Shown piece by piece: positions 14,668 to 37,773 of a DNA stretch of 64,000 nt. This DNA is from Oscillospiraceae bacterium. GTDB lineage: Bacteria; Bacillota; Clostridia; UMGS1840; HGM11507. A program made the position numbers and the translations under genes. The DNA lies in contig SVKB01000002.1 of NCBI GenBank assembly GCA_015068665.1, positions 62,001 through 126,000 on the forward strand, in the 5' to 3' direction. Below the pieces are notes generated by a model. That model worked only from the letters and a program-made list of their open reading frames with translations. It was not told where the DNA came from and made no database searches. Position 1 is the first letter of the stretch. Each line of letters begins with the position of its first letter.

Positions 14668-14700
14668 CAAAAAGGGGACTGTAAATTTATTTACAGTCCC
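14668..14700 (-). terminator. Terminator closing repeat copy 1
   Basis: A 12-bp stem (14675-14686 with 14689-14700) is followed on the minus strand by CC and five T. The stem may also slow plus-strand transcripts leaving the YhcH-like gene. Confidence 0.8.
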
Positions 14701-14970
14701 TAAAACAATTCAGAGGGGATAGGAAAAAATCTTCAGAATGGATAAACTTAGCCAAAATCTTTGATTTTGGGTTACCCGCAGCTGTATGAGATACAGCAAG
14801 TGGCTAAGTTTATTCATAACCAAAAACTTAAATTTTAAAGATTTTTCTAAAATCTTTACCTTTTTAATGGTTAGCCGTCGGAAAGTTATCCGACGGCTAA
14901 TTTGATAAGTTTCTCTATCAAAATCGTTGATACATCTTGTTTTTGGTGGTCTGGAGTTTTTTTACATCCC
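14668..14970 (-). repeat. Structured intergenic repeat, copy 1 (putative minus-strand RNA)
   Basis: This element is also present at 36564-36877; by hand alignment 14701-14970 differs from the second copy at about 7 of 270 positions. Read on the minus strand it shows a series of stems. TTAGCCGTCGG pairs with CCGACGGCTAA (14871-14900). AAAGATTTT pairs with AAAATCTTT (about 14836-14858). A long ATAAACTTAGCCA/TGGCTAAGTTTAT stem (14741-14814) encloses GCTGTAT/ATACAGC and CAAAATC/GATTTTG hairpins. A terminator closes the unit (GGGACTGTAAAT/ATTTACAGTCCC, 14675-14700, then five T). Ends 14675-14685 and 14961-14970 form an imperfect inverted repeat. It lies between convergent genes and directly follows the 14975 stop. 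No coding frame fits. Confidence 0.85.
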
Positions 14971-14974
14971 TTTT

Positions 14975-15649
14975 TTATTTCTTTTTTACATTTTCCATAT
15001 ACAGTCTTTCAAAATCGCTCTCCTCTATCCCCTTTTCTTCAAGATAGGTACAGGTGAAAATGGGAAGATTGCTGTGAAGTGAAAGAAAGGTAGGACTCAG
15101 CATATGTCTTGAAGCTATAATTTCGGTATTGTCTATATGCTCCTCTTTAAGCTGTTCCTCCTTAAAGGGTACAAACAAAACCGGAGTTTCAAAAACCACA
15201 GGGGTAGCAGAGCCGTCGGGATAATACCATAAATAAAAACCGTCAGCCTCTGTTGCATAGGAAAGAGCCTCTTTACTGTAATGAGCTTCGGCAAATTCCT
15301 TTTCCATCTGCATAACATCGTTAGGATATATAATCACCTGGGGAATAAGAGGTATTCCCTCCCCTTCAGGCACAGGCTTTAATCTTAAAGCCTTATCCTT
15401 TATGTCAAAAAGCCATTCCTCATCTCCTAAGGTTATGGGAACAAGACGTTCCCCCTTAGTTGATGCAACTGCCTTACAGGTGGTAAGCCGTGGCTCTTCC
15501 GCGGTAACATTTACGGTTATTTCGATCCTGTCCTCATAGGTCAGAAATTCGATTGGAATATAGCCTTTTTCCTGAGTATAAATTGCCTTTACGCAAACAT
15601 CAAACATATTTTCCTTAAGTATAGGTTTTTCCTTCTTTTTAAAAAACAT
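14975..15649 (-). CDS. Hypothetical protein (224 residues)
   Basis: I do not recognise the family. The product starts MFFKKKEKP and is a soluble, acidic protein with alternating beta segments (YIPIEFLTYEDRIEITVNVTAEE, EEWLFDIKDKALRLKP) and no signal peptide or membrane segment. There is a weak GGCGG-type RBS. It lies about 5 nt upstream (in the transcription sense) of repeat copy 1, which could form its 3' UTR. The CAP-domain gene is further upstream on the same strand beyond 57 bp. Function unknown; coding potential is good because the frame is long and has an RBS. Confidence 0.6.
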   Translation of the reverse strand: MFFKKKEKPILKENMFDVCVKAIYTQEKGYIPIEFLTYEDRIEITVNVTAEEPRLTTCKAVASTKGERLVPITLGDEEWLFDIKDKALRLKPVPEGEGIPLIPQVIIYPNDVMQMEKEFAEAHYSKEALSYATEADGFYLWYYPDGSATPVVFETPVLFVPFKEEQLKEEHIDNTEIIASRHMLSPTFLSLHSNLPIFTCTYLEEKGIEESDFERLYMENVKKK

Positions 15650-19016: not shown

Positions 19017-19228
19017 GTTAATGTTGATTTCGGGGAAATTTAAAAAAGATGATTTATTTTTTATAATGTTTCAGATGATTATTTTATAGGTAGAATAGAT
19101 AAACAGCACCTGATTCTGTTTAAGGATTGGGTGCTGTTTATTTTAATGAAATCGTGAAAAGCGCGGTGAAATCCAAACAGGTTTGAATTAAATATAAAAA
19201 TAAGCTTTGCTAGTGAACACAATATGCC
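19017..19228. other. Non-coding stretch with one 11-bp inverted repeat
   Basis: No convincing gene here. The one clear structure is TAAACAGCACC (19100-19110) pairing with GGTGCTGTTTA (19130-19140) around a 19-nt loop, with only a weak T-run. The rest, including GTGAAA/GTGAAATCC words near 19155-19175, may be decayed sequence of the same type as the arrays that follow. Confidence 0.45.
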
Positions 19229-19377
19229 TTTTGTGTCAGATAAGAGTATTTCTTTGTGGCTTTGCCACAAAATGATGTTCAGGCAAAGCCTGAAACAGTG
19301 TTGACCGCAGGCGGTCAAATGATGTTGTGCCCAAGGACACAAACACAAAAAAAGAACGCATATTGCGTTCTTTTTTT
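19229..19377. repeat. Multi-hairpin array C with outer closing stem
   Basis: Three local hairpins, each with a tiny loop: TTTGTGGC/GCCACAAA (19253-19271), TTCAGGC/GCCTGAA (19278-19294) and TTGACCG/CGGTCAA (19301-19318). They are separated by AATGATGT or ACAGTG words. A fourth local stem TTGTG.CC/GG.CACAA (19325-19342) has one mismatch. The upstream strand TTTGTGTC (19230-19237) pairs perfectly over 8 bp with GACACAAA (19336-19343) and would close the whole array. A terminator hairpin follows at 19347-19377. No gene fits. Sequence differs from arrays A and B, but the layout is the same. Confidence 0.75.
19347..19377. terminator. Bidirectional terminator of array C
   Basis: AGAACGCA, loop TAT, TGCGTTCT, flanked by six or more A on one side and T on the other, so it could act on either strand. 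Confidence 0.85.
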
Positions 19378-19383
19378 GGAAGA

Positions 19384-19625
19384 GCAGAACAATAATGATG
19401 CAGGTTAGTTTTTAATGAAATATCAACTCCGTTGATATGAAATAATCCTGACGGATTATGAAATATTTTTCTTTCAGAAAAATGTGAAATAAAATAAATC
19501 CTTTTATCACACGCCGCAGGCGTATTTCATATTGCGTAGCAATATTTCACGCCCGAAGGGTATTTCACAAATCCTGAAAGGATTTATTTCATTGAAAAAA
19601 GCACCGACAAAGTCGATGCTTTTTT
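19384..19625. repeat. Multi-hairpin array B (constant block plus variable hairpins)
   Basis: The constant block 19384-19495 matches 19635-19746 with one difference in 112 nt. It contains hairpins ATATCAAC/GTTGATAT (19420-19438), ATAATCC/GGATTAT (19442-19459) and ATTTTTC/GAAAAAT (19465-19483), each preceded by GAAAT. The variable block carries ACGCC/GGCGT (19511-19523), ATATTGC/GCAATAT (19529-19545), GCCC/GGGT (19551-19561) and AAATCC/GGATTT (19569-19585), each followed by TTTC. Strand AAATAAATCC (19492-19501) pairs over 10 bp with GGATTTATTT (19580-19589), closing the array or competing with the last hairpin. ATTTCATTG and a terminator end the unit. Confidence 0.9.
19595..19625. terminator. 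Bidirectional terminator of array B
   Basis: Six A, GCACCGAC, loop AAA, GTCGATGC (one mismatch), six T. Usable on either strand. Confidence 0.82.
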
Positions 19626-19634
19626 CATGGCAAA

Positions 19635-19867
19635 GCAGAACAATAATGATGCAGATTAGTTTTTAATGAAATATCAACTCCGTTGATATGAAATAATCCT
19701 GACGGATTATGAAATATTTTTCTTTCAGAAAAATGTGAAATAAAATTTGCCTTTTCATATGCCGTAAGGCATATTTCATACAGGTCGTGTATTTCATAGC
19801 GAAGCTATTTCACTTGCCGAAGGCAAATTTCATTGAAAAAACGACTTGCCGAAGCAAGTCGTTTTTT
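19635..19867. repeat. Multi-hairpin array A (constant block plus different variable hairpins)
   Basis: Its constant block (19635-19746) is nearly identical to that of array B, 251 bp away in direct orientation. The variable block is unrelated in sequence: ATATGCC/GGCATAT (19757-19774), ATACA/TGTAT (19778-19792), ATAGC/GCTAT (19796-19808) and TTGCC/GGCAA (19814-19826). These are again spaced by TTC words. The outer strand AAATTTGCC (19743-19751) pairs over 9 bp with GGCAAATTT (19822-19830), overlapping the 3' arm of the last hairpin, as in array B. The final terminator abuts the 3' end of tRNA-Tyr on the minus strand. Confidence 0.9.
19836..19867. terminator. Terminator of the tRNA-Thr/tRNA-Tyr transcript and array A
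   Basis: CGACTTGC, loop CGAA, GCAAGTCG (8 bp), flanked by A6 and T6. On the minus strand it begins 2 nt after the encoded CCA of tRNA-Tyr. Confidence 0.88.
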
Positions 19868-19868
19868 C

Positions 19869-19953
19869 TGGTGGGAGAGGGTGGATTCGAACCACCGAAG
19901 TCACTGACAACAGATTTACAGTCTGCCCCCTTTGGCCACTCGGGAACTCTCCC
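19869..19953 (-). tRNA. tRNA-Tyr (anticodon GTA)
   Basis: An 85-nt class-II tRNA with a long variable arm (TGTCAGTGACTTC region), as expected for bacterial tRNA-Tyr. The acceptor stem pairs GGGAGAG with CTCTCCC, the anticodon stem-loop is CAGACTGTAAATCTG, the T-loop is GGTTCGAATCC, and CCA is encoded. Its 5' end directly abuts the CCA of tRNA-Thr with no spacer. Confidence 0.97.
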
Positions 19954-20029
19954 TGGAGCTGGTGATGGGACTCGAACCCGCGACCTGCTGATTACAAATC
20001 AGCTGCTCTACCAATTGAGCTACACCAGC
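19954..20029 (-). tRNA. tRNA-Thr (anticodon TGT)
   Basis: A 76-nt tRNA. The acceptor pairs GCTGGTG with CACCAGC, the D-arm is TAGCTCAATTGGTAGAGCA, the anticodon loop is TTTGTAA with anticodon TGT, the T-loop is GGTTCGAGTCC, and CCA is encoded. It reads ACA and probably other ACN codons. Transcribed with tRNA-Tyr. Confidence 0.97.
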
Positions 20030-20100: not shown

Positions 20101-20177
20101 TGGTCGAGGCGACAGGACTTGAACCTGCGGCATCTTGGTCCCAAACCAAGCACTCTACCAAACTGAGCTACGCCTCG
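20101..20177 (-). tRNA. tRNA-Pro (anticodon TGG)
   Basis: A 77-nt tRNA. The acceptor pairs CGAGGCG with CGCCTCG, the D-arm is TAGCTCAGTTTGGTAGAGT, the anticodon stem-loop is CTTGGTTTGGGACCAAG, the T-loop is GGTTCAAGTCC, and CCA is encoded. It has its own promoter, separate from the Thr/Tyr pair. Confidence 0.97.
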
Positions 20178-36566: not shown

Positions 36567-36603
36567 AAAAAGCTGTAAATAAATTACTAAATTTATTTAC
36601 AGC
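36564..36603 (-). terminator. Terminator closing repeat copy 2
   Basis: A 13-bp stem (36572-36584 with 36591-36603) followed on the minus strand by six or more T, overlapping the tgt stop codon region. Confidence 0.82.
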
Positions 36604-36877
36604 CCCTAAAACAACTCAAAGGGGATAGGAAAAAATCTTCAGAATGGATAAACTTAGCCAAAATCTTTGATTTTGGGTTACCCGCAGCTGTATGAGATAC
36701 AGCAAGTGGCTAAGTTTATTCATAACCAAAAACTTAAATTTTAAAGATTTTTCTAAAATCTTTACCTTTTTAATGGTTAGCCGTCGGATAGCTCTCCGAC
36801 GGCTAATTTGATAGGTTTCTCTATCATAATCGTTGATACATCTTGTTTTTGGTGGTCTGGAGTTTTTTTACATTCCC
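36564..36877 (-). repeat. Structured intergenic repeat, copy 2 (putative minus-strand RNA)
   Basis: The second copy of the 14668-14970 element. Positions 36605-36874 are nearly identical to 14701-14970; the differences cluster in the loop between the CCGACGG arms and in the GATA/TATC hairpin. The long TAAACTTAGCCA/TGGCTAAGTTTA stem (about 36647-36719) with its inner hairpins is unchanged. The closing hairpin is different in sequence from copy 1 (GCTGTAAATAAAT/ATTTATTTACAGC, 36572-36603) but again ends in T6-7 on the minus strand. Like copy 1 it lies between convergent genes (tgt and degV) and directly downstream of a minus-strand stop codon. Confidence 0.85.
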
Positions 36878-36885
36878 TTTTAATT

Positions 36886-37773
36886 TTAATCTTCTCTTTT
36901 TAAGCCCATAAAGAACAGGGCAACTGTTCCTTTACCTGTATGTGAGCCGATTACGGCACCGATATCATTTATCAGAACCTTACCCTTAAGAGCCGGGAAG
37001 GTTTCTTCAACAAGGTCTCTAACGGCATTAGCATCCTCTATACTTGCCGAGTGGCATATGTAGCAGTCACCGTCATAGGAGGTTCCGCCGTATGCACATT
37101 CCTCCATCATTTTAACGGTTTCCTTGATAACTGTTTTCTTACCTCTTATTTTCTTTCTCGGAATCAGCTTACCCTCAAAGCTTACATTCATAAGAGGACA
37201 AATTCCAAGCAAAGTTCCCAGTAAAGCGGAGGTTGCGGAAACTCTTCCGCCTCGTTTCAAATGGGTTAAATCAGAGGTAAAGAACCAATGATGAACATTT
37301 AACTTATTTTCCTCTGCCCAGGCAGCAACCTCATCAATTGACTTTCCTTCGTCTCTTAAATCAGCAAGCTGCTTTATAAACAGACCGTAGCCCGATGAGG
37401 CTGCAAGAGAGTCAATAACATAGAGCTTTCTTTCGGGATACTTTTCCTTAAGCTCATTTGCCGCTATCTGACAGGAATTAAAGGAGCCTGAAATACCTGA
37501 GGATAAGGAAACGAAAAGCACATCCTTCCCCTCTTTTAAAAAGCTTTCAAAAAACTCCATGTGCTGATCAACATTAATCTGACAGGTGGTAGGCATTCCG
37601 CCTTCAACTATTCGCTGATAGAATTTATCAAAGGGATAGCTTTCTCCGAAATTATCTTCATAGGTTACATCGTCAAGTAAAAACGTGAAATAAAGATATT
37701 CAATATTTCTCTCCACAAAAAAGCTTTTCGGCATATCCGCCGTTGTCGTAGCTGCTAATACAAAATTACTCAT
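36886..37773 (-). CDS. DegV-family fatty-acid-binding protein
   Basis: A 295-residue DegV protein, same length as typical members. The N-terminal domain has TTTADMPKSF and later VSLSSGISGSFNSCQIA, which contribute to the fatty-acid carboxylate pocket. The C-terminal domain includes WFFTSDLTHLKRGGRVS, LGTLLGICPLM and DIGAVIGSHTGKGTVALFFMG. DegV/FakB proteins hold acyl chains for phosphorylation by FakA. No fakA is adjacent, so which kinase it serves is unknown. AAGGAGG precedes the start. Its stop lies 9 nt before repeat copy 2. Confidence 0.93.
   Translation of the reverse strand: MSNFVLAATTTADMPKSFFVERNIEYLYFTFLLDDVTYEDNFGESYPFDKFYQRIVEGGMPTTCQINVDQHMEFFESFLKEGKDVLFVSLSSGISGSFNSCQIAANELKEKYPERKLYVIDSLAASSGYGLFIKQLADLRDEGKSIDEVAAWAEENKLNVHHWFFTSDLTHLKRGGRVSATSALLGTLLGICPLMNVSFEGKLIPRKKIRGKKTVIKETVKMMEECAYGGTSYDGDCYICHSASIEDANAVRDLVEETFPALKGKVLINDIGAVIGSHTGKGTVALFFMGLKRED

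Follow-up and report, generated by a model that had tools for sequence, protein, structure and literature searches.

Two gene-less hairpin arrays that stand in tandem behind a tRNA-Tyr gene are probably non-autonomous members of a family of mobile units located at the 3' ends of tRNA genes, in which the complete units encode a four helix bundle protein of the S23 family. They lie in a window of 64,000 nucleotides from an Oscillospiraceae bacterium (contig SVKB01000002.1, positions 62,001 to 126,000), a term used here for the whole stretch of DNA that was analysed. The Rfam family Gut-1 (RF01706) is part of these S23-linked mobile units, which gives a context to an orphan family. Based on sequence comparison, the family link and the past movement of the units are well supported. 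We infer the copying chemistry of the units and, from linkage and the Avd fold, the recognition by S23 of its spacer word. The units point to a small mobile element which makes use of tRNA 3' ends with no obvious transposase.

Anatomy and folding of the units in the window

Along the minus strand tRNA-Pro, tRNA-Thr and tRNA-Tyr are followed by CCA, a terminator hairpin, half A (GAAAT spacers), half B (ATTTC spacers), a 26-nt right end with a final CCA, and then the next unit and a third unit (Table 1). The tandem units have CCA at both ends, their ends are mutually complementary (TTTTTAATGAAATA / TATTTCATTGAAAA), and they consist of the array only, without an S23 gene. Spacer pairs of the form GTGAAAT..TGAAAT occur four times in the window, every one within the units, against an expected number of 0.18. 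The right-end 26-mer type of unit 2 was also found after the S23 stop codon in two units of the ACTTATT family (L215 and L200). The third unit has its own terminator (approximately 19346-19378), and its word, AATGATG, is that of the S23 unit in L196.

Table 1. Features of the tRNA cluster and the adjoining units, with positions in the window
Feature	Position	Strand	Basis or remark
tRNA-Pro (tgg), same cluster as tRNA-Tyr	20101..20177	-	ARAGORN
tRNA-Thr (tgt), same cluster as tRNA-Tyr	19954..20029	-	ARAGORN
tRNA-Tyr (gta)	19869..19953	-	ARAGORN; CCA end = left boundary of unit 2
Unit 2, gene-less array	19628..19868	-	Directly at tRNA-Tyr CCA end; sequence, repeats, unit comparison
Unit 2 terminator-like hairpin	19835..19868	-	Inverted repeat I7
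Unit 2 half A, GAAAT spacers, TTTGCC type II	19747..19835	-	Gut-1 match, 51.3 bits
Unit 2 half B, ATTTC spacers (constant block of the earlier note, common to unit 1)	19660..19746	-	Repeats, unit comparison
Unit 2 right-end 26-mer, TGCATC-N17-CCA	19628..19653	-	Sequence
Unit 1, gene-less array, tandem with unit 2	19377..19627	-	Sequence, repeats, unit comparison
Unit 1 terminator-like hairpin	19593..19627	-	Inverted repeat I6
Unit 1 half A, AAATCC type I	19496..19594	-	Gut-1 match, 69.1 bits, at 19519-19594
Unit 1 half B, constant block	19409..19495	-	Repeats, unit comparison
Unit 1 right-end 26-mer	19377..19402	-	Sequence
Third unit, other spacer word (AATGATG / CATCAT)	~19200..19376 (left limit approximate)	-	Repeats

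An earlier note on this DNA, made from the sequence alone, had described a repeated 112-nt block (19384-19495 and 19635-19746), which is indeed present twice with 99% identity. The ungapped repeat spans 125 nt (19371-19495 and 19622-19746, 96% identity, spacing 251 nt) and then gives way abruptly to a variable set of hairpins. The variable hairpins beside the constant block and the two spacers, GAAAT to one side and ATTTC to the other, were found as described, both in anatomy and in coordinates. The proposed layout of the units was retained in its coordinates but had to be revised in orientation and limits: the units are read on the minus strand, 3' of tRNA-Tyr, and the CCA with the terminator forms their natural boundary. 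The "constant plus variable" pattern of the window corresponds to a single half B, common to the two units, combined with two different halves A, unit 1 being I+b and unit 2 II+b. Elsewhere in the window, positions 14682-14980 and 36588-36886 constitute a 299-nt repeat (96% identity) which contains several hairpins.

Both strands, as DNA and as RNA, fold more stably than all 200 dinucleotide shuffles (z approximately -5.6 to -6.3). When the plus strand is folded as DNA, the best structures have the two unit ends paired, some spacers paired with each other and the hairpins projecting sideways. In half A most hairpin loops resemble TNC, in half B GNA or GNNA. In 86 of 112 units (control, 9) the right arm of the first hairpin recurs farther along, so that local and long-range pairing would be mutually exclusive.

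Both window units exceed the gathering score (50) of the Gut-1 covariance model. The Rfam entry (PMC2864571) covers half A only and is filed as an sRNA, whereas here it is one half of an S23-linked DNA unit. The earlier note had considered a structured RNA with swappable arms; such an RNA (Gut-1) would be transcribed either from the opposite strand or by read-through starting at the tRNA promoter, with S23 perhaps as its binding protein. The two Gut-1 matches, the stable RNA folds (z approximately -6) and the occurrence of S23 genes inside rRNA and RNase P RNA are in agreement with this reading. A terminator, however, stands between the tRNA and the array, and an S23 promoter-like sequence comes after the array. 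RNA stems usually tolerate wobble, but of 283 distinct F1 hairpins scored 239 pair perfectly, and the single mismatches include only 14 G-T as compared with 7 A-C. Since wobble pairs are nearly absent, the stems are more likely to matter as DNA than as RNA, and a structured RNA is considered rather unlikely. This scarcity of wobble suggests that complementarity is maintained at the DNA level.

Copies of the units and their sites

A search of this genome with RF01706 gave 48 matches, of which 18 were above the cut-off. For 13 of these 18 strong copies, a same-strand tRNA ends 35-40 nt before the start of the copy (tail probability approximately 1e-39 under uniform placement); of the remaining strong copies, two stand in tandem with another copy and one borders directly on a 14-nt fragment of tRNA-Pro. 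The 112-nt block has relatives at approximately 15 places in its own genome, and constant and variable parts are present genome-wide in other copies, not merely in the window pair. Three types of half A and several of half B were distinguished among 13 complete units of this genome. The combinations I+a, II+b, II+a and I+b all occur, which indicates that halves have been exchanged among units and bears out the replacement of cassettes postulated in the earlier note. The stems, too, turn over and are nevertheless still paired. The same terminators recur at different tRNAs and therefore appear to be part of the unit.

Four near-identical units of the GTGATAT family with unrelated flanks were observed in this genome (G000, contigs C47 and C13; L005, L006 and L019). 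Three of the four adjoin a hairpin with the constant tip GGTGGCTCGATGCC, the stems of which differ but stay paired. A further array family, which has TGAAT/ATTCA spacers and hairpins of the kind TGTTGACTTATGTCAACA, is located at L003 (9831-9938), L005 (769-876 and 3227-3335), L006 (4152-4235) and L019 (4634-4752); no S23 partner was found for it. In G003, a genome of the same genus, a tmRNA gene is followed directly by a terminator and an array, the spacers of which are of the GATGAAATC type (L038, 2111-2570).

Using the pattern CCA-terminator-CAAYGAAAT, at least 116 stretches were retrieved, nearly all of them from gut and rumen Clostridia. As CCA is demanded by the pattern, this search is not a test of tRNA preference, and it is the variety of the tRNAs that is informative: among the matches listed, ARAGORN recognises a tRNA or tmRNA, of 16 kinds in all, ahead of 87 of 119 related units. 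Approximately one third of the other 32 units listed have a T-loop in place, and in others 10-21 nt of a tRNA 3' end are preserved, random CCA sites reaching 8 nt at the 95th percentile. An F1-type S23 frame follows in 19 of the 98 related units listed that have enough downstream sequence. In a complete unit (approximately 600-660 bp) the tRNA CCA is followed by the terminator, the hairpin array with the family word, promoter-like sequence and the S23 gene, at the stop codon of which the unit ends.

Pairs of units at different tRNA types have 590-660 bp in common (67-87% identity) between unrelated flanks. In the best pairs the shared segment starts within approximately 30 nt of the CCA and ends near the S23 stop codon (median 10 nt before it). 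The presence of whole units at different tRNA genes with unrelated flanks argues that the units have moved. Internal deletion of a coding parent, which is a criterion for MITEs, was found among the related units in L181 and L095, where only the last 24 and 38 S23 codons, respectively, remain next to the array. Comparison of flanks gave no clean empty site among the related loci.

A tRNA-Lys unit (L210 / L129, G005 contig C10) has an in-frame stop within its F1-type S23 frame and is probably a decaying complete unit. Two gut contigs filed as phage (MT835590.1 and MT835815.1; L258 and L259) contain S23 units, the order in L259 being tRNA-Arg, CCA, terminator, GTGATAT array and S23. A tRNA-T-loop-like sequence, GAGTTCGAAT..., recurs at the distal ends of L086, L088, L094, L111, L131, L134 and L147, and comes after the last spacer in many array-only units.

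The fixed position after the CCA and the symmetrical terminator of each unit could also be explained by a transcription boundary or insulator at the ends of tRNA operons, kept by selection and with no mobility of its own; the S23 promoter-like sequence lies directly after the array, which could be its operator. A boundary element had also been proposed earlier; bidirectional-looking terminators do form part of each unit, but such a role leaves movement between tRNAs unexplained. The same tRNA end holds different families in related species: at the orthologous locus of G003 (ClpC, ABC transporter, tRNA-Pro-Thr-Tyr, CAP-family gene) a different S23 unit, with the word ATTCATT, lies behind tRNA-Tyr, and three unit families were found at tRNA-Cys across three species. 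Furthermore, unlike tRNAs with unrelated flanks have units in common, and array families are also found far from tRNAs. An immobile boundary is on these grounds improbable.

The palindromes, the many intergenic copies and the single Y1_Tnp gene of this genome would fit REP/BIME-like sequences moved by a Y1 (RAYT) single-strand transposase, which the earlier note had named first. The suggested search for Y1 did return that one gene, but the word GTGAAAT is absent from the 3.3 kb around it, the only Y1 locus of the genome. No Y1 match was obtained in G003 (98% completeness), which has 30 Gut-1 matches, and the Y1 proteins of the order are scattered, with scores unlike one another. The words go with S23 proteins, and movement by a Y1 transposase is scarcely credible. 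The S23 mobile units appear to resemble RAYT/REPIN systems in combining a small protein gene with a palindromic repeat cognate to it and with numerous gene-less copies, but the protein is an S23 four-helix bundle and not a Y1 transposase.

An ordinary integrative element with a tRNA attachment site was rejected, as no repeat of the tRNA-Tyr 3' end occurs at the distal ends of the window units. Some other units have tRNA fragments of 10-21 nt, which agree with islands that entered between the tRNA and the unit at a later time.

The S23 protein and its spacer words

Many arrays lead directly into promoter-like sequence followed by an ORF, the product of which was identified as TIGR02436, four helix bundle protein (E 5e-30; family TIGR02436/PF05635). 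The closest solved structure by sequence is 2RLD. The predicted model has four helices (pLDDT 93.7) and matches 2RLD, 2GSC and the Avd structures 4DWL and 8UB7 (TM approximately 0.8 for Avd). The solved relatives of S23 are ring-shaped pentamers, and to our knowledge no catalytic activity has been ascribed to S23. The S23/IVS proteins are widespread, with solved structures, and their function is not known (PMC4990558). Although the Avd fold is thus shared with DGR systems, the RVT_1 reverse transcriptase gave no match in G000 or G003, and a resident enzyme of this type was discarded as the copying enzyme. The PF05635 search of the window's order gave 24 matches; two weak matches, in G007 and G008, adjoin a reverse transcriptase and look like DGR Avd.

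Wherever an S23 locus of the order could be read, the gene is preceded by an array or heptad repeat, mostly with its own word. The words are GTGAAAT, GTGATAT, GCTAAAT, TCGATAT, ACTTATT, AATGATG, ATGATAT, TCTTCAC and ATTCATT. Each word with two or more members forms one group in the S23 tree, that is, one spacer word per S23 clade, and the number of word changes on the tree (9) is the minimum, with none of 200 shuffles as low. This match is partly explained by linked descent of the gene and the neighbouring array and does not prove recognition by itself; the link of one word to one clade gives S23 a concrete candidate ligand that can be tested. Since S23 genes were only partly set apart from shuffles by a word count with one mismatch allowed, exact-word and lag-7 tests were used. 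At least five exact copies of a 7-mer are located upstream of 22 of 33 S23 genes, as compared with 1 of 76 other genes of the same loci (p 3e-14). No paper treating S23 and repeat arrays together was found in the open-licence literature.

For the S23 mobile units, the mechanism which we propose is that the S23 protein would bind its cognate spacer word, which the hairpins might hold open in single-stranded or extruded DNA, and that it could act in trans on gene-less copies. Insertion at a tRNA end would need a further enzyme besides S23. An S23 gene with the GTGAAAT word was not found in this genome or in G003; if S23 drives movement, its gene must consequently have been lost or lie within the missing 6% of the assembly. 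A type III toxin-antitoxin layout, with tandem RNA repeats before the toxin gene, was also considered and rejected, since the order of promoter and terminator differs and we know of no nuclease activity of S23.

Heptad repeats and S23 genes beyond the order

S23 matches were obtained in 27 of 119 genomes in a sample of the phylum. Among sampled S23 genes of Bacillota and cyanobacterial plasmids, lag-7 repeats precede 23 of 33 (p<0.01 each) versus 4 of 18 other ORFs of the same loci (p 0.001); some of the sampled S23 genes are without such repeats. Upstream and downstream heptads around S23 tend to be inverted relative to each other, and heptad repeats flank most S23 genes at 23S rRNA, RNase P RNA and cyanobacterial sites. 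An S23 gene with inverted heptads inside a structural RNA gene was seen in L232 (RNase P RNA) and in L226, L230 and L237 (23S rRNA).

The 23S rRNA IVS of Coxiella burnetii, which has been called a selfish element, has GACAGAT heptamers before the S23 ORF and terminal inverted repeats (PMC4990558). It encodes the same protein family as the S23 units, but lies inside 23S rRNA, whereas the window units are 3' of tRNA-Tyr, gene-less and with hairpins between the words. Heptads similar in style to the STRR and TAACTGA repeats of cyanobacteria (PMC4679880) precede S23 genes on cyanobacterial plasmids. S23 goes unmentioned in the papers on these heptanucleotide repeats, PMC4679880 included. We propose that the repeats are linked to S23, and S23 units are a candidate source of them, their origin having been left open in PMC4679880.

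Tentatively, and with somewhat less than even confidence, S23 could represent a broad class of minimal mobile elements, made up of an Avd-like ring protein, an array of cognate words of approximately 7 nt (either as bare heptads or spaced by hairpins) and numerous gene-less copies, with a preference for structural RNA genes (tRNA and tmRNA 3' ends, 23S rRNA, RNase P RNA). STRR, TAACTGA and Gut-1 would be footprints of this class.

The 23S rRNA IVP stands in a list of CRISPR-linked proteins (PMC10910872), a place it may owe to plasmid S23 genes between CRISPR genes. On cyanobacterial plasmids (L249, L253 and L256), S23 genes with heptads lie between cas6 and cas4 or between cas10 and cmr3.
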